From: Bacteroidia bacterium
Lineage (GTDB): Bacteria; Bacteroidota; Bacteroidia; J057
Length of the DNA: 64,000 bases
Direction of reading: 5' to 3'
Assembly: GCA_022760475.1 (NCBI GenBank)
Contig: JALEFZ010000035.1
Location: 1-64,000, forward strand
The notes beneath the pieces were generated by a model. It saw only the letters and a program-made list of their open reading frames with translations. It was not told the origin of the DNA and did not search any database. The translations under genes and the position numbers were made by a program. Below, one piece after another: positions 2,141 to 38,976 of the stretch (position 1 is its first letter; each line of letters begins with the position of its first letter).

Positions 2141-3021
2141 TCTTCAGGTAGGCCTATTTCCAGGCTGTCAATTTTTACTTTATGGGCAGAAGTTAAAATG
2201 TAGACATTTATCAGGTTATCAAAATCCGTAGCCAGGTTCATATCTATCCTATAAAACCCCCCTTCCCCTTCCTTTTCTACATCCAAAACTGTTCCTACCA
2301 GGATACCTGGAGGAAAAACAATGCTATTTCCTGTAGTGATGACCTCATCATTGACATGGATCGGAACCGTTTCTGAAACGTAGGTGATGCTGGCTTGCTG
2401 GGGGTTCTTTCCATCCCAATCATAAAAGCCAATAGGCCCAAGGGTATCTTGCGCACCTTTTGGGATTGCCCTAATCATCAATTCGAAGTCTTTGTTGAGA
2501 GCCGATTGTACCAGACAATACTCATTAACCACACGGATGACCCTGCCCACGATGCCTTCAGGAGAAACAACTCCGATGTCTTTTTTTACCCCATGCTTTA
2601 GGCCTTTATTCAGGACTAAATAATTGTAGGACTTATGGGTCGTATTTTTGATCACATGTGCTGGCATATAACCAAAGGTATCAATGTCTGTGAGGTATAT
2701 GGAATCTAGTTTGACTGCATCAATGTTCTCCGACTTGAGAGCCCCCACATAAGCGTCTACCTGCTGGCGAGCAGTTTCCAGCTCAACTTGGAGCCTGATG
2801 TTCTGGTCCAGAAGTTTCTTATTCTCAACTCTGAGATTTAGGTAATCAGAAAACACAAGGCCAGTCTCTTGCAACCTACCGGATGCAGCAAGCATTGCGT
2901 CTCCACTCAGCTGTCGTTGGTGATCGTTAGCTCTGATAATCAGGTTGAAAGAGATCAATAGAAGTACGATCAATAGCAAGCTATCCCTGTACTTCGAAAA
3001 AAAACTTATCAACCGCAGCAT
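2137..3021 (-). CDS. mreC: Rod shape-determining protein MreC
   Basis: Periplasmic scaffold of the elongasome that binds and activates PBP2. The 294-residue protein has a short cytoplasmic N-terminus, one membrane helix (about residues 12-31), a coiled coil (about 60-95, rich in Leu, Gln and Glu) and a C-terminal double beta-barrel domain. That domain contains the family's GLKHGVKKDIGVVSPEGIVG stretch (about residues 140-159). It lies 42 bases after mreB and overlaps mreD by four bases. Length and architecture are typical of Bacteroidota MreC. Confidence 0.94.
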   Translation of the reverse strand: MLRLISFFSKYRDSLLLIVLLLISFNLIIRANDHQRQLSGDAMLAASGRLQETGLVFSDYLNLRVENKKLLDQNIRLQVELETARQQVDAYVGALKSENIDAVKLDSIYLTDIDTFGYMPAHVIKNTTHKSYNYLVLNKGLKHGVKKDIGVVSPEGIVGRVIRVVNEYCLVQSALNKDFELMIRAIPKGAQDTLGPIGFYDWDGKNPQQASITYVSETVPIHVNDEVITTGNSIVFPPGILVGTVLDVEKEGEGGFYRIDMNLATDFDNLINVYILTSAHKVKIDSLEIGLPEE

Positions 3022-3063
3022 AGCTGAGCCTTATTTGGTTTTGGAAAAAATATACCTATCTGC

Positions 3064-4086
3064 TTAGCCCAAAAGGTACTTGAATTCGTCTATGTTGGTC
3101 AGGGAAATACCTGTACCCCTAACCACAGCCTTCAATGGGTCTTCTGCTACGTGAATGGGCAGTTTGGTTTTCTCAGCCAAGCGAATGTCCAAACCTCTAA
3201 GAGACGCACCACCTCCTGTAAGGTGAATTCCTCTTTCGTAGATGTCTGCCGAAAGCTCAGGAGGAGTATTCTCCAGCGCTTTCAGGATTGCATCTTCGAT
3301 TTTAGTTATGGATTTATTGAGGGCATGAGACACTTCCTTGTAGGAAACCGAAATGGTTTTGGGGATTCCGGTCATCAAGTCCTTACCACGAATTTCTATA
3401 TCTGTTGGGGGTTCTTCCAGTTCGGGCAAAGCAGCTCCTACTTCAATCTTGATCCTTTCGGCACTTCTCTCTCCAATGAGCATGTTGTGCTGCTTCCGCA
3501 TGTAATCCAGGATGTCGTCGTTGAACTCATCTCCTGCGATGCGGATGCTTTGGTCAGTAACAATACCGGATAGGGCAATTACGGCGATCTCTGTGGTCCC
3601 TCCACCAATATCGACAATCATGTGCCCGGTAGGTTCCTTGACGTTCAATCCTATGCCTATTGCAGCTGCCATAGGCTCTGGAATCAAATAAACCTCTTTG
3701 GCTCCAGCCTGCTCCGCAGAGTCCTTAACTGCACGTTTTTCAACCTCTGTAATCCCGGAAGGAATACAAATTACCATTCTATAATTGGTAGAAAACAATC
3801 GGCGCTTCCTTGGAATCATGCCAATCATCTTCCTGATCATATGTTCAGCAACAGTAAAGTCCGCAATTACTCCATCTCTTAGTGGACGAATGGTCCTGTA
3901 CTTCTCGTGCGTCTTCTCATGCATCTGTTGAGCCTCACGGCCAACAGCGATCACCTTCCCTGACATACGGTCAATCGCAACGATGGAGGGCTCATTCACC
4001 ACAACCTGATCGTTGTACATGATCAATGTATTCGCCGTTCCAAGGTCAATTGCTATATCAGTAGTAAAAAAATCGAATATTCCCAT
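3064..4086 (-). CDS. mreB: Rod shape-determining protein MreB (actin homologue)
   Basis: Bacterial actin that forms membrane-bound filaments steering the wall-elongation machinery; it implies a rod or elongated cell. The 340-residue protein shows the actin-family nucleotide motifs: phosphate 1 at residues 14-20 (DLGTANT), phosphate 2 at 159-166 (DIGGGTTE) and the adenosine motif LTGGGASLRG near 290. Nothing is missing against the family. The 161-bp gap from purH is the likely site of the mre promoter; an imperfect minus-strand box TATTTTCG lies at 4142-4149 (weak evidence). mreC, mreD and mrdA follow downstream. Confidence 0.97.
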   Translation of the reverse strand: MGIFDFFTTDIAIDLGTANTLIMYNDQVVVNEPSIVAIDRMSGKVIAVGREAQQMHEKTHEKYRTIRPLRDGVIADFTVAEHMIRKMIGMIPRKRRLFSTNYRMVICIPSGITEVEKRAVKDSAEQAGAKEVYLIPEPMAAAIGIGLNVKEPTGHMIVDIGGGTTEIAVIALSGIVTDQSIRIAGDEFNDDILDYMRKQHNMLIGERSAERIKIEVGAALPELEEPPTDIEIRGKDLMTGIPKTISVSYKEVSHALNKSITKIEDAILKALENTPPELSADIYERGIHLTGGGASLRGLDIRLAEKTKLPIHVAEDPLKAVVRGTGISLTNIDEFKYLLG

Positions 4087-4247
4087 TAACGTTCTTGGTG
4101 AAATAGATGGAGATAAAAAACATCTCTATTGTTTGATCCTGCGAAAATACGCTTTTATGATTTTATATCTTAAAAAATGGGCAATAATTTCTGATGAAAA
4201 ACAACAGAAAGCTAAGCTCCACTTTCAACACAGGATTAATAGCAAAA

Positions 4248-5768
4248 TTAGTGCTTAAAATGTCTTATTCCTGTGAAAATTAAGCACATACCATGACTTT
4301 CACAAAAATTAATGGTATCCTCATCCCTGACGGAACCTCCTGGTTCAACCACGATTTCGATTCCTTTTTGATGAGCCAACTCTACGGAGTCCGCAAAAGG
4401 GAAAAATGCGTCCGATGCAAGTACAGAACCTGAAAGCTCGAAACCCCTTACTTCCGCCTTTTGAATAGCTTGCTTCAAGGCATCAATTCTGGAGGTTTGT
4501 CCAATTCCACTACCAATAAGCTGGCCATTCTTGACCAAGGCAATGGCATTTGATTTCAAATGCTTACAAACTAGGTCACCAAATACCACATCTGAAATTT
4601 CCTCGCGGCTAGGCTGCCTGCTGGTCTTGACTTCCAGGATGCTCTCGTCTGCCTTTTTATGGTCCTTATCCTGAACCAGATAGCCATTGATAGCAGATTT
4701 TACGATCTGAGGGTGCATTTCCTTGGAAAGACGCTTCAGGACGATTCTTTTCTTCTTGCTCCTCAATACTTCCAGGGCCTCCTCCGTAAACTCTTCTGCG
4801 ATCAAAACTTCATAGAAGAGTTTGTTGATGTCCTCTGCCAATTCCTTATCAATTTTTCCATTGCAAGCCAGGATACCTCCAAAAGCAGATACGGGGTCCC
4901 CCTCCAAGGCCCTGTGCCAGGCTTCCTTCATGTCATTTCCTAGCGCACAGCCACAAGGGTTGGTATGCTTGATGATGGCAAAAAATGGTTCTTCAAACTC
5001 GTCAACCAATTGCAAGGCACCCTCTATGTCTACAAGATTATTGTAGGACAACTCCTTCCCATTGAGTTGCTCAAATACCTTGGACAAGTTGCCAAGGAAG
5101 TAGCCCTTCTGATGAGGGTTCTCCCCATAGCGAAGTTGCTTGGGCTTTTGCAGAGATAATTTTAGGTTGGGAGACTCTGGATCAAGGTAAGCATGTATCT
5201 GTGTGTCATAGTGAGAGGACACATCAAATGCCCTTGCAGCAAAGGTTTTCCTTTGTTCAAGGCTGATCTCTCCGTTTTGCTCCCTTAACAATTTTGCCAA
5301 TTCGCTGTACTCCTCCTCACTTGCAATACAGGTTACATCAGTGAAGTTCTTAGCCGCAGCCCTGATCAATGCAATTCCTCCAATGTCAATTTTTTCAATG
5401 ATTGCAGCGTCTTCAGCTCCTGAAGCCACCGTTTCTTCAAAAGGATATAAATCCACGACCACCAGATCGATAGGCGGAATATCAAATTCTGCCAAGGTTT
5501 TAACATCTCCTTCCTCACTCCTCCTTGCCAAGATCCCTCCATGTACCTTGGGATGAAGGGTTTTTACCCTCCCACCAAGTATGGAAGGATAACCGGTCAG
5601 GTCAGCCACCTCTTCTACTTTGGCGCCGAGTGATTCCAGATAAGCCGCTGTACCTCCAGTTGAATATATAATTACATTTCTGGCTATCAACTCCTTGGCA
5701 ACTTCCTCAAGGCCTTCTTTATGATATACCGAAATAAGAGCAGAGCGTATAGCTTTTTTGGCTGTCAT
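4248..5768 (-). CDS. purH: Bifunctional AICAR formyltransferase / IMP cyclohydrolase
   Basis: Catalyses the last two steps of de novo purine synthesis: formylation of AICAR with 10-formyl-tetrahydrofolate, then ring closure to IMP. The N-terminal MGS-like cyclohydrolase domain (about 1-150) shows STGGT at 36-40 and GGRVKTLHPKVHGG at 65-78. The C-terminal formyltransferase domain contains the catalytic Lys267-His268 pair followed by TNPCG. The 506-residue length is standard. It starts 21 bases after the purN stop, so the two purine genes are probably one transcript. The mre genes follow in the same direction. Confidence 0.97.
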   Translation of the reverse strand: MTAKKAIRSALISVYHKEGLEEVAKELIARNVIIYSTGGTAAYLESLGAKVEEVADLTGYPSILGGRVKTLHPKVHGGILARRSEEGDVKTLAEFDIPPIDLVVVDLYPFEETVASGAEDAAIIEKIDIGGIALIRAAAKNFTDVTCIASEEEYSELAKLLREQNGEISLEQRKTFAARAFDVSSHYDTQIHAYLDPESPNLKLSLQKPKQLRYGENPHQKGYFLGNLSKVFEQLNGKELSYNNLVDIEGALQLVDEFEEPFFAIIKHTNPCGCALGNDMKEAWHRALEGDPVSAFGGILACNGKIDKELAEDINKLFYEVLIAEEFTEEALEVLRSKKKRIVLKRLSKEMHPQIVKSAINGYLVQDKDHKKADESILEVKTSRQPSREEISDVVFGDLVCKHLKSNAIALVKNGQLIGSGIGQTSRIDALKQAIQKAEVRGFELSGSVLASDAFFPFADSVELAHQKGIEIVVEPGGSVRDEDTINFCESHGMCLIFTGIRHFKH

Positions 5769-34198: not shown

Positions 34199-34405
34199 CT
34201 AGAAATTGGTCAGCCTGGCTGCATACCTGAGGCAAGCCTGAAAATCTTCTTTTTCAAGAAAAGGGAAATTGGACATAATCTGATCCGGAGTCTGTCCTTC
34301 TGCCATCATTTCAAGCAACATGCTGACAGAAACTTGTTGGTTGCGAATGGAGGGTCTGCCGTTGCAGACTTCAGGGTTCAAAGTAATTCTAGTTAATACT
34401 TCCAT
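34199..34405 (-). CDS. DUF433 domain protein (antitoxin-like), no toxin partner visible
   Basis: A small 68-residue protein from the chosen ATG; an upstream in-frame ATG at 34471 would add 22 residues. The sequence has the DUF433 pattern: RITLNPEVCNGRPSIRNQQVSV at the N-terminus (shown from residue 6 on), a helix-turn-helix-like middle and a short C-terminal helix. DUF433 proteins often act as antitoxins for DUF5615 PIN-like nucleases. The 256 bases downstream hold no open frame of that kind, so it is orphaned here or has lost its toxin. Confidence 0.75.
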   Translation of the reverse strand: MEVLTRITLNPEVCNGRPSIRNQQVSVSMLLEMMAEGQTPDQIMSNFPFLEKEDFQACLRYAARLTNF

Positions 34406-34471
34406 TTGCGATATCTTTAATTCAATCACACGATAATTCACAAGTCTGGACTTCTCACAAAGCCCTGACAC

Positions 34472-34910: not shown

Positions 34911-35555
34911 TCAAAAATCCCAGTCTAAGACCCAGCCCTGCCTAATTGCCTCACGAACAATACCTGCAGAGTTTCGAACCCCTAATTTTTCTCGGATATT
35001 CTTCCTATGTGTGTGAACGGTTTCTCCAGATATAAATAATTTATCTGCTATTTCTTTAGCTGAATATTCCTGGACAATCAATTTCACTATCTCCACTTCA
35101 CGAGTCGTCAAATTACTCTTAGGTCTTGCACCAAATTTCCCCTTCAACATGCCCGCCACCTTTTTCATAACTTCGAAGCCATAGTAAGTTCCTCCCTTTG
35201 AGACGGTACGGATTGCCTCCAAAATTTCCCTGCTATCAGACTCCTTTAGTATATAACCATCCACTCCCTCTTCCAGGAGACGCATGATCAATTTGCTCTC
35301 ATCATAAATGGTCAGCATGATAACCCTAACTTCCGAGTGATTTTCCTGAAGATGTTTTAACGTTTCCAATCCATCCATCACAGGCATATTGATGTCGAGT
35401 AACAAAATATCAGGGCTTTCTTTTTGGAGAAAATCCAATACCTGCTGACCATTCCCAACCTCACCTGCTATATGAATGTCCTCCTGGCCATCAAGGCTAA
35501 ACCTTAAGCCATCTCTGTAAATGGGTTGGTCGTCCGCTATTAGTACATTTATCAT
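34911..35555 (-). CDS. NarL/LuxR-family response regulator
   Basis: A 214-residue two-component regulator. The receiver domain (about 1-120) has Asp8-Asp9, phospho-acceptor Asp54 (LLLDINMPVMDG) and the conserved Lys in LKES (about 104). The C-terminal LuxR-type HTH (about 148-210) includes LTTREVEIVKLIVQEYSAKE and TVHTHRKNIREKLG. Its start overlaps the stop of the histidine kinase gene by four bases (ATGA), so the two form a translationally coupled pair. It is the last gene of a probable four-gene operon. Confidence 0.94.
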   Translation of the reverse strand: MINVLIADDQPIYRDGLRFSLDGQEDIHIAGEVGNGQQVLDFLQKESPDILLLDINMPVMDGLETLKHLQENHSEVRVIMLTIYDESKLIMRLLEEGVDGYILKESDSREILEAIRTVSKGGTYYGFEVMKKVAGMLKGKFGARPKSNLTTREVEIVKLIVQEYSAKEIADKLFISGETVHTHRKNIREKLGVRNSAGIVREAIRQGWVLDWDF

Positions 35556-37480
35556 TTTTCTTTTAACCAGCTTTCTGTAGGTGAAGGAAAGGGGATGAAA
35601 ATCCTTGCAGAAAAACCATTTCCAGGACTTGACTCCATCTCAATGGTGCCCGATAGTTTTCTGACTCTTGCCTTAATGTTCTTAAAACCTATGCCTTCTT
35701 TCTCTAGCCCTGTCTCCAAACTCATTCCTATTCCATCATCAGAATACTTCAACCCCAGGCTATCTTTTTGGTGATTCAACTCTAGGTAAATTTTTTCTGC
35801 CTTTGCATGCTTAAGTGTATTGGAAATCAGTTCCTGACTTATCCTGTAAACCCCATGTTCCACCATAGAAGGTAATCGACCATGCTCGAAACCATAATAA
35901 TTAAGCCCTACATCAATGTTGTTGGACTTGTTCAATTCATCGATCAGGCTTTCGAGGGCGTCAATCAACCCAAGGTGCCGGAGCGTACCGGAAAGCATAT
36001 CATGTGATAAGTTTCGAACTTCCTTAACTGCCTTTGCAAGGGTGGACTTTGCCTTTTCTACTGCCTGAAACTGTTGTTCCTCTTTTTCTTCGAGCTTTTG
36101 CTCCAGAGAAGAAAAATGGAGCTTGACAGCAGATAGCAGCATTCCAATGTTGTCATGAAGTTCTTGTGCAATCTTGTTTTGAGTTTGTTCCTGCCCTTCT
36201 AGCAAGGCTTCCAGCGCAATGTCTTCTTGATTGTTGAGTAACTGATTGATTTCTTCTTCATAAAAAGTTTTTCGCTGGAAAGATTGGAAACGGAGTAACA
36301 GAAACGCGACCAATAAAATACTTGCAATCAGCAGGACAATCCCCACAAACAGGCTTAAGCGATAATTGTCTGCCCTCAACTTTTCATTTTGGTACTTTTG
36401 GGTAATATCAGTAATGGCTTCAAGGCGATTCAGGCTATCAATGGCTTCTTTCTCTTCAGAATAAATTTCAAAGTATGACATGGCAGAGTCTAGAACTCCT
36501 GATTTGCGGTAGACTACCCCCAGGTTGCGGGTGGTATTCATTATCAATTCTCTATCAGAACTATTTTGTAATTCCTCATGTGCTTGTAGCAATAGTTCTT
36601 TGGCCATTTGATACTTTCCACTTTCCGTTAAGATGGCTCCATAATTGACGCGGGCACGGGTGAAGAAATTAGGGCGAAAATGAGATTGATACTTCTGGAA
36701 TACTTCGGAATAGATGGATTCAGCTTCTTCCAACTTTCCTTTCTCATAGGCGAGGTTTCCCAGTTTGCTGTAGTCTTTCAGCCAAAGAGATGAATCAGGA
36801 ATCATCAGGTAGGTTTGCATAGCCTGATCGAAATACCTGGATGCCAGGTCAAAGTTATCCTTTGCCACAGCAATGTTTCCAAGGCTTGAAAAGCCATCTG
36901 CACGATTTTTCAATGCCCTGGAATCTGAAGCCTTCTGCCAAAATTCAACACTGCCCCGGTAATGCAATTCCGCAGAAACAAGGTCTCCCTGATGGGCGTA
37001 AAGGGCACCCAGGTTGGTTTGAAAATAGCCTTCCAGAAATGGATGGTCAATTTTATGGATCTTCATGCTATTCAAGCCGTTCAGGTATTGAAGCAAGGCT
37101 GAGTCAGGGGCATTCAGTTTTTTGTAGCACTGCCCTTGGTTAAAATAAACTTTGGCGATGTCCAAATGGAGGCCAAGTTCTTGATAGATCGCCATGGCAG
37201 ATCGGTAGAAAAGCAAGGCGGAGTCGGGTTTTCCTTCTCGACTCTTGAAATCCCCAAGGACTTTTCTGGCGAGGGCAATGCCTTCCCGAAAATTAGCCTT
37301 TTCACTTTCAGCCAAGATTTCCCTTACCATTTGGGTGTAGTTTTCAGGCTTTTCATTAAAACTACTGCGGTAATTGGCCAACAATTGAAGTTGTTCTCTT
37401 TGATGATCAGATGGACTGTTTTGCCCAAAAGAAATTGAGCAAAACAGCCATAAACAAATAAGAAGTCCTTTACTTTGCAT
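35552..37480 (-). CDS. TPR-containing NarX/DesK-type sensor histidine kinase
   Basis: A 642-residue sensor. Signal sequence (1-19), then a periplasmic domain of about eight tetratricopeptide repeats (about 60-345), one membrane helix (about 375-397), a HisKA_3 dimerisation domain with phospho-acceptor His442 (AQELHDNIG) and an HATPase_c domain. The latter has the N box (ELISNTLKHA, about 546) and G box (DDGIGMS, about 575). The TPR region probably senses a protein or peptide in the periplasm. It is coupled to the response regulator downstream. The gene for an unknown small protein ends only 11 bases upstream. Confidence 0.94.
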   Translation of the reverse strand: MQSKGLLICLWLFCSISFGQNSPSDHQREQLQLLANYRSSFNEKPENYTQMVREILAESEKANFREGIALARKVLGDFKSREGKPDSALLFYRSAMAIYQELGLHLDIAKVYFNQGQCYKKLNAPDSALLQYLNGLNSMKIHKIDHPFLEGYFQTNLGALYAHQGDLVSAELHYRGSVEFWQKASDSRALKNRADGFSSLGNIAVAKDNFDLASRYFDQAMQTYLMIPDSSLWLKDYSKLGNLAYEKGKLEEAESIYSEVFQKYQSHFRPNFFTRARVNYGAILTESGKYQMAKELLLQAHEELQNSSDRELIMNTTRNLGVVYRKSGVLDSAMSYFEIYSEEKEAIDSLNRLEAITDITQKYQNEKLRADNYRLSLFVGIVLLIASILLVAFLLLRFQSFQRKTFYEEEINQLLNNQEDIALEALLEGQEQTQNKIAQELHDNIGMLLSAVKLHFSSLEQKLEEKEEQQFQAVEKAKSTLAKAVKEVRNLSHDMLSGTLRHLGLIDALESLIDELNKSNNIDVGLNYYGFEHGRLPSMVEHGVYRISQELISNTLKHAKAEKIYLELNHQKDSLGLKYSDDGIGMSLETGLEKEGIGFKNIKARVRKLSGTIEMESSPGNGFSARIFIPFPSPTESWLKEK

Positions 37481-37491
37481 TGACAGACAGC

Positions 37492-37995
37492 TTAGACGTT
37501 TTGTTTCTGGGTAGGATCACCTACCACATCATGATCCACTTCCGCGAAACTATAAGTAACTACAGCCTTCTTTTTTACATCGGAATTGATACCGCCATTA
37601 TAGCTTGCAGGTGGAATCACCCTGATGGTAAACCCACGGGTTTTTTCAGGTTTTTTAAAGGGAAAATCAGTCCTGTAACCTTCTGAAGGTCCTACCTCAG
37701 GTTCGTCTTTATAAGAAAACCCAACAAGGACATATTTATTTTCAATTGGTGGATTGGATATCTTCTGTGCCTCTTTAATGTCTATTGTGAAAATCCCTCT
37801 TCCTTCAGCATAATATGTTCGATTATAATATTCCCACCATGCCCGTTTGCACGCCTTCACAAAGGCCTCTTCACAACCAGCCTCAACCCATGTGGAGACC
37901 TGAAAATATATTTTCCCATCAGAGGTGCTGGAAATATGAACCATAGGTTTATACAATTCACTTTTATCGATTCCTCCTGATTTATAATTTTTCAT
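37492..37995 (-). CDS. Unknown protein P1, paralogue of the upstream P2
   Basis: A soluble 167-residue protein without signal peptide or membrane helix. It shares with the next gene upstream a beta-rich layout: a VH pair near residue 19, YFQVSTW (about 30-36), FTIRVIP (about 122-128) and a C-terminal block VKKKAVVTYSFAEVDHDV (about 139-156). It has three Cys/Trp-rich positions in the centre (about 40-60) lacking in P2. Its stop is 11 bases before the histidine kinase start, so it should be co-transcribed with the two-component system. I do not recognise the family and no function is assigned. Confidence 0.7.
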   Translation of the reverse strand: MKNYKSGGIDKSELYKPMVHISSTSDGKIYFQVSTWVEAGCEEAFVKACKRAWWEYYNRTYYAEGRGIFTIDIKEAQKISNPPIENKYVLVGFSYKDEPEVGPSEGYRTDFPFKKPEKTRGFTIRVIPPASYNGGINSDVKKKAVVTYSFAEVDHDVVGDPTQKQNV

Positions 37996-38102
37996 GATAA
38001 TTTAATTTAAGAAATAATGAATAAAATTTTTCATTATAGTCCCGCTCCCCATTGTGAATAGGGATGCAAGAACCTTAATGTGTTTAAATAAGATAGAATG
38101 AG

Positions 38103-38127
38103 GGCTGCTTCGATTATTTAAGCAGCC
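38103..38127 (-). promoter_or_regulatory. Stem-loop between the P2 and P1 genes
   Basis: Perfect 8-bp arms GGCTGCTT and AAGCAGCC with a 9-base loop lie 12 bases past the P2 stop. On the minus strand no T-run follows, so it may be an mRNA-stabilising or leaky attenuating hairpin. Confidence 0.5.
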
Positions 38128-38138
38128 TCTAGGCTGAA

Positions 38139-38576
38139 TTAATGATTTAGGATATTGTGATGTGGATCAATTACATCACCTTCTACTTCAGCGAAACTAT
38201 AGGAAAGAGCTGCTTTTTTCTTTACTGTTGGGTCCGTGCTGGAACCCGGGTTGTAAGGAACAATTCTCACTGTAAAACTGGGGTGATCAGGTTTATGGAA
38301 GGGATTAGGGTATTCATAAAAAGCCCAATAATCCTGTTCTAAAGGTCCAGACTCTATAAGCTCTACAGGAAGGGTGAAATAAAAACTACCTTCCTCCATT
38401 TCTGTATCCATATCTTTGTTTTTCCAGGCTGCATTTTCCTCGCCAAGTCTTTGCTCTTTTCTAAGCCAAACCGCCACTTTGAAGTAGTAGGCATAGTCTT
38501 CTCTGTCTCCTATTACGACTTTATCTTTTGTTCTTGTCAAATGAACCAATGGTTCGTCATAATTTTGAGTGTTCAT
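38139..38576 (-). CDS. Unknown protein P2, paralogue of P1
   Basis: A soluble protein of 145 residues from the chosen ATG (residue 23 of the longer frame that begins at 38642); this start lines up with the N-terminus of P1. Shared blocks with P1 are PLVHL, YYFKVAVW, FTVRIVP and VKKKAALSYSFAEVEGDV. Identity outside these blocks is low, so the duplication is old. It is the likely first gene of the P2-P1-kinase-regulator operon. No family was recognised. The conserved C-terminal block suggests a shared fold or binding site. Confidence 0.68.
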   Translation of the reverse strand: MNTQNYDEPLVHLTRTKDKVVIGDREDYAYYFKVAVWLRKEQRLGEENAAWKNKDMDTEMEEGSFYFTLPVELIESGPLEQDYWAFYEYPNPFHKPDHPSFTVRIVPYNPGSSTDPTVKKKAALSYSFAEVEGDVIDPHHNILNH

Positions 38577-38976
38577 GTTGTAAAAATTTACTGTGTAAAA
38601 AGGGATACTGTATGATTCAATTTTTCTATTGGAGCCCCACACCTGCCCTATCTAAGAATCAGGCATGGGGATCTATATCACCATCCAATCAGAGAAGATT
38701 GGCCTCATATTTAAATTAATCAGTCCTTTCCTTTATGGTAACTTCCTCCTGGATTCGAGTAAAGTGAACCATAAGCTCTAAATACCTTTATAGCTACAAA
38801 GCAATCTCACGATAACTAACTAAAAATCAACTAATTAGAGTAGAAATAAATCATGGGAAGAAAATGGCGGATTGATATGAGGTTTTGGTACTATAAGAAT
38901 ATTGATACAGAGGTAGAATTATTTCTCGATGAACTTTCTTAAGAAGAGAATTCATGCACATATAAGATTTTGAGTA
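38577..38976. other. Intergenic region upstream of P2
   Basis: A 400-bp gap between the P2 start and the convergent-side end of the T9SS gene (same strand, upstream). It should contain the promoter of the P2 operon. Only a 29-codon open frame (38853-38942, plus) is present, judged to be chance. Nothing else seen. Confidence 0.5.

Follow-up and report, generated by a model that had tools for sequence, protein, structure and literature searches.

Small genes immediately ahead of TPR-HisKA_3 sensor kinases in Bacteroidota: a putative partner family with P1 and P2 as likely diverged members

Dedicated accessory proteins of phosphorelays are exemplified by IgaA, an inner-membrane protein dedicated to the Rcs phosphorelay (PMC5978795). 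Small proteins encoded together with effector enzymes are in turn known from the EAD-based prokaryotic conflict systems described by Kaur et al. in 2020 (PMC7159879) and 2021 (PMC8195603); no histidine kinase domains were reported for the vWA-associated effectors of the 2020 survey (PMC7159879). TPR-HisKA_3 kinases with NarL-type regulators are the third point of reference in Bacteroidota, and the kinase and the regulator of the locus presented here are ordinary by domain content. The large genomes of the family to which this locus belongs carry many TPR-HisKA_3 kinases, and a partner protein would be a handle on what they sense and on who modulates them. No published description of the kinase-partner arrangement discussed below was found in the open-access literature searched.

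The P1-kinase-regulator locus and its paralogous genes

The locus lies on the minus strand of the window, by which we mean the whole stretch of 64,000 nucleotides of Bacteroidia DNA that was analysed, and consists of the following features:

34911..35555, minus strand: NarL/LuxR-type response regulator, 214 aa (ORF; Pfam Response_reg 2.3e-29, GerE 2.9e-17)
35552..37480, minus strand: sensor kinase, 642 aa (Pfam TPR_12 1.3e-26, HisKA_3 3.5e-11, HATPase_c 8.8e-11)
37492..37995, minus strand: P1, 167 aa, without signal peptide or transmembrane segment (ORF; 11 bp before the kinase)
38100..38129, minus strand: terminator-like hairpin just past the P2 stop codon (-13.6 kcal/mol, z -2.6)
38139..38576, minus strand: P2, 145 aa, a paralogue of P1 (blastp 31% identity, E 7e-15)
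38659..38778 (about), minus strand: probable decayed third copy, MVHFTRIQEEVTIKERTD*...LDGDIDPHA* (translated similarity to P2)

The kinase has a signal peptide, periplasmic TPRs, one transmembrane segment near 377-396, a HisKA_3 domain with the phospho-acceptor His442, and an HATPase_c domain, while the regulator combines a REC domain carrying Asp54 with a GerE HTH; all the elements of a TPR-HisKA_3/NarL pair are thus present. Close relatives of the kinase are lacking within the order, where the best match shows 39% identity in the kinase part only.

The gene positions, the 11 bp separating P1 from the kinase and the overlap of 4 bp between the kinase and the regulator are all as given in a preceding sequence-only reading of this DNA, which had also proposed a single four-gene operon. 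The tight packing of P1, kinase and regulator agrees with this proposal, but P2 stands apart, and its inclusion in the same operon is doubtful. Because a gap of 143 bp separates P2 from P1, and a hairpin with a T-rich tail follows the P2 stop codon within this gap, P2 probably forms its own transcription unit, separate from P1-kinase-regulator. Only 1 of 200 shuffles was as stable as this hairpin; its tail is T-rich but imperfect, it is absent from the output of the terminator scan, and the matches of both the sigma-70 and the terminator scans were no commoner than in shuffles. The coordinates of P2 are counted from an ATG, and a GTG at 38642 would lengthen the protein. The scanned neighbours of P1 and P2 comprise a Por-sorted protein, a Peptidase_S74 protein, a Wzy_C protein and a DUF433 protein, the gene of the latter being located downstream of the regulator (34199-34471 of the window, minus strand).

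P1 and P2 are homologous, with 31% identity over 157 columns (blastp E 7e-15) and an alignment score of 151, the maximum in 2000 shuffles being 64; the shared sequence blocks noticed beforehand were found again, and the paralogy was borne out. The view that the two proteins have no known family also held, since Pfam, NCBIfam, PHROG, PADLOC and the PDB sequences gave no match, and no recognised EAD or effector domain was present according to Pfam and PADLOC. A T-box identity (E 0.018) misses the cut-off and was rejected, and a likeness to the PixA/AidA inclusion proteins is not claimed. The AlphaFold models of P1 and P2 (pLDDT 38.5 and 35.3, respectively) are too poor for fold comparison.

Upstream of P2 there is a further region, overlooked by the sequence-only reading, that resembles P2 at both ends and is broken by two internal stop codons and an extensive deletion. 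Its first block scores 52 against P2 in translation, none of 1000 order-1 Markov sequences having scored above 48, and its similarity to P2 at the DNA level is not significant. This frame, at about 38659-38778, is probably a degenerate third copy of the P1/P2 type. Together with the extra copy P2 and the divergence of these proteins, it suggests a rapid turnover of the partner.

Small genes upstream of TPR kinases in related genomes

The survey was based on 96 HisKA_3 kinases from 13 genomes of the family, and the loci of most of them were retrieved. A small, unclassified and signal-less gene was found upstream of 17 of the 45 TPR-length kinases, mostly in the slot occupied by P1, while many TPR kinases of the family are devoid of it. 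P1 itself qualifies by position, as a small, non-regulator, signal-less gene located 11 bp directly upstream of a TPR-HisKA_3 kinase. The automatic pass, in which the longest ORFs were taken first, detected a small gene at 150 bp or less before 14 TPR kinases, plus one more at 399 bp (L097). Two further cases, hidden from that pass by a longer ORF on the opposite strand or by the length filter, came from a re-scan by eye: L105, where the small gene encodes 185 aa starting with MKLFKPYIY (gap 28), and L093, from contig C70 of the same genome as the window, where two ORFs in tandem encode 83 and 92 aa and the gap is 363. Since this re-scan was limited to kinases labelled 'none', the counts that include L105 and L093 lean towards the hypothesis. 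The L093 module has the two small ORFs, alike by eye, at 2571-2822 and 2865-3143, and the TPR kinase at 3507-5555, all on the plus strand, followed by a regulator and a caspase.

When only non-regulator, signal-less genes of 100-260 aa with a gap of at most 150 bp were counted, they preceded 14 to 16 of 42 TPR kinases, against a background of 8 in 107 genes (Fisher p between 2e-4 and 2e-5); the range reflects whether cases that looked unrelated, or that came from the re-scan, are counted in. The denominator of 42 is the kinase list after removal of four rows whose upstream sequence was too short, the TPR rule of the script alone having caught 17; from the background set, four rows, either truncated or derived from modules, were taken out manually. 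Several of the counts, as well as the tree labels, the four profile versions and the caspase count given below, were devised once the pattern was already in view. By eye, the small ORFs preceding L071, L064, L072 and L044 looked unrelated. A different recurring pair was also observed, in which the gene of a short HisKA_3 kinase (255-290 aa) overlaps that of a membrane protein of 211-226 aa lying upstream (L045, L061, L067, L081, L083, L098 and L108).

In a tree built on the kinase cores (last 260 residues), the kinases bearing a small gene cluster, with 6 changes compared with 13.4 after shuffling, and none of 500 shuffles was as low. These labels preceded the re-labelling of L105 and L093; with both re-labelled and three rows left out for want of upstream sequence, the count was again 6, with no new shuffle. 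The group of 13 rows that contains the window kinase has weak support (SH-aLRT 86); 11 of its rows have the small gene. Sister kinases are accompanied by the most similar small proteins, as seen for L048/L097 and for the L054 and L094 pairs, and L050 and L051 share one starred clade. Clear pairwise relationships between upstream proteins were found for L048-L097, L050-L051, L042-L097, the L054 pair and the L094 pair.

Profile searches extended these relationships beyond the family. When run on 395 genomes of the class, profile A2, built from seven aligned upstream proteins, recovered its members and added a single newcomer, G710 (E 5.8e-4), which belongs to another order. Its gene order is regulator-small-kinase, with a TPR-HisKA_3 kinase, and therefore it is the adjacency to the kinase that is kept. 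The G710 protein (L128 4615-5343, minus strand) has a hydrophobic, membrane-like segment at the N-terminus, unlike the other members; it may be membrane-anchored, with its domain in the periplasm on the same side as the TPRs of the kinase. Profile A5, enlarged from A2 by G710 and L105, matched three proteins of another class among 394 genomes of the phylum: G098 (1.9e-7), G086 (6.6e-5) and G212 (0.0014). Their genes, of 113-118 aa, overlap or lie at most 25 bp from a TPR HisKA_3-type kinase, followed by a regulator; as they share this gene order, they were counted as one event. The other A5 matches (E 0.002-0.008) fall within frames of at least 494 aa and were set aside. All four out-of-family matches in small frames are thus directly upstream of a TPR-HisKA_3 kinase, and none away from a kinase was seen in the class and phylum genomes searched.

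The scanned small proteins of the family had no convincing match in Pfam, NCBIfam or the PDB. Since the upstream proteins of L043, L054, L059, L093 and L094 also fail to match the profile, the slot upstream of the kinase could hold unrelated proteins.

Probable relationship of P1 and P2 to the small upstream proteins

The sequence-only reading had suggested a profile search for homologues of P1 and P2 beside TPR-HisKA_3 kinases, and in that form the search came back without any. Outside the window, none was found in the 13 genomes of the family, the 22 genomes of the order, the 395 genomes of the class, the genome contig collection, viral contigs, phages or plasmids, and the 395 genomes of the phylum gave just four matches at chance level (E 0.015-0.04 per genome). 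Two pattern matches in the genome contig collection were attributed to chance (one within an ArgC-like gene, the other antisense to a sugar-transferase-like gene), and the weak profile matches L004-L007 to noise, L005 being the end of a SecA-like frame.

This absence of homologues is what would be expected if P1 and P2 were ORFans confined to their lineage, without kinship to the other small genes, and had come to lie before the kinase by chance. Their third-position GC of 33%, compared with 42-50% in the neighbours, would agree with this and is compatible with young, foreign or weakly expressed genes, and about 7.5% of the background genes likewise have a small upstream gene. However, we regard this origin as very doubtful given the spacing of 11 bp between P1 and the kinase, the position of the kinase in a (weakly supported) tree group where 11 of 13 rows have the gene, and the N-terminus-to-N-terminus fit of P1/P2 to the profile, which exceeds that of all controls.

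This fit was obtained with hhalign. With all profile versions P1 was aligned from residue 14 to the N-terminus of the family, and with the 12-member profile residues 14-40 of P1/P2 were aligned to 3-29. The score of P1/P2 was 20.4 with the 7-row profile, 20.3 with the 8-row profile (at least 1 of 300 column shuffles reached it, the highest scoring 20.75), 22.5 with the 9-row profile (1 of 500) and 21.3 with the 12-row profile (0 of 600), column shuffles being a lenient null for beta proteins, whose strand patterning they break. P1 alone scored 19.3 with the 12-row profile, the best of 247 control proteins (250 minus three that were family members) reaching 18.6. In a nine-residue motif scan, P1 and P2 ranked among the best 1-2% relative to 622 control N-termini. 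On the other side, the hhalign probability for P1/P2 was only 5 to 11%, and HMMER with the family profile was not significant for either protein (P2 3.8 bits, P1 -0.8). Taken together, a remote homology of P1 and P2 to the small kinase-partner family is likely, even though it is not proved.

Possible role of the putative partner and comparison with known systems

Several modules have enzymes beside them, all of them signal-less: Peptidase_C14 proteins at L144, L141, L140 and L139, animal haem peroxidases at L142 and L143, and a Tectonin plus Trypsin_2 protein at L138; in L093, a caspase is located downstream of the regulator. In L139, L142, L143, L138 and L144 a distance of 11 to 126 bp separates the enzyme gene from the small gene downstream of it. 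With 97 caspase matches in about 83 Mb of the family, 0.18 would be expected within about 5 kb of the 15 module loci, where 4 or 5 were observed, in a post hoc comparison. No enzyme was found near L042, L043, L057, L058, L059 or the modules of the other class, and no effector enzyme beside P1/P2 in the window neighbourhood.

These enzymes bear on two other explanations of the small proteins. They could be the output of the system, that is, effectors or recognition proteins under the control of the kinase and the regulator and driven by conflict to evolve fast, sometimes joined by a signal-less enzyme. The fast divergence, the extra copy P2 and the probable decayed copy would fit such a role, as would the tandem small genes of L093, the repeated modules of L054 and L094, and the caspases and other enzymes just described. 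Nonetheless, the gene stays beside the kinase where there is no enzyme nearby, and also where the regulator has moved; profile matches in small frames stay with a kinase as well, no catalytic domain or secretion signal was recognised in the small proteins, and P1/P2 have no adjoining enzyme; we hold an output role to be rather unlikely. Alternatively, the small protein could be an adaptor linking the kinase to the co-encoded enzyme, following a logic like that of effector-associated domains, as the closely spaced enzyme genes upstream of five small genes would allow. This is very unlikely, since the gene also occurs in enzyme-free modules, that of P1/P2 among them, and no stretch matching convincingly was found between the co-encoded enzymes and the small proteins.

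Because the gene keeps its place next to the kinase, and not next to an enzyme or the regulator, we favour an accessory partner. In this reading P1 and P2 belong to an unnamed kinase-partner family, with P1 as the dedicated accessory regulator of its kinase; for this whole explanation we hold the chances to be about even. The family would comprise small, probably beta-rich proteins of this phylum whose genes immediately precede those of TPR-HisKA_3 kinases, and P1, with P2 by descent, would have diverged strongly from the other members. P1, predicted to be cytoplasmic, would be produced from the kinase's own transcript, bind the kinase and set its activity (we infer both the binding and the direction of control), with the NarL-type regulator as the output of the kinase. 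Of the 'accessory or output module' envisaged from the layout, the accessory half is thus better supported, the gene remaining with the kinase as other parts change. The functional link itself gains from the recurrence of the slot in several genera and from the profile-found members of another order and class, always adjacent to a kinase; for P1/P2, for which no homologues were found, it rests on gene position and a weak N-terminal similarity that is better than that of the controls.

The partner family would thus keep its place and not its sequence, and P1/P2 exemplify how a protein without detectable homologues can be placed by gene position. The company of caspases and haem peroxidases in some genomes hints at conflict or cell-fate control. 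A bolder proposal, which we consider quite unlikely, is that the specificity of the two-component module lies in a hypervariable, kinase-bound small protein, wired in some lineages to caspase-like, peroxidase or trypsin-like enzymes, thus constituting a kinase-governed system of conflict, self-recognition or cell death.

Compared with IgaA and Rcs, the likeness lies in a separate, system-specific protein that would tune a sensor kinase; the difference is that the small proteins described here mostly have no signal peptide or transmembrane segment and are in no named family. With the EAD-based conflict systems they share the encoding of caspase and trypsin-like effectors together with small, variable, uncharacterised proteins, whereas the modules here are built on a kinase and a response regulator, and P1/P2 fit no Pfam or PADLOC model. 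Finally, what sets this locus apart from the TPR-HisKA_3/NarL systems of Bacteroidota is the small upstream partner gene, which fits no family model searched.
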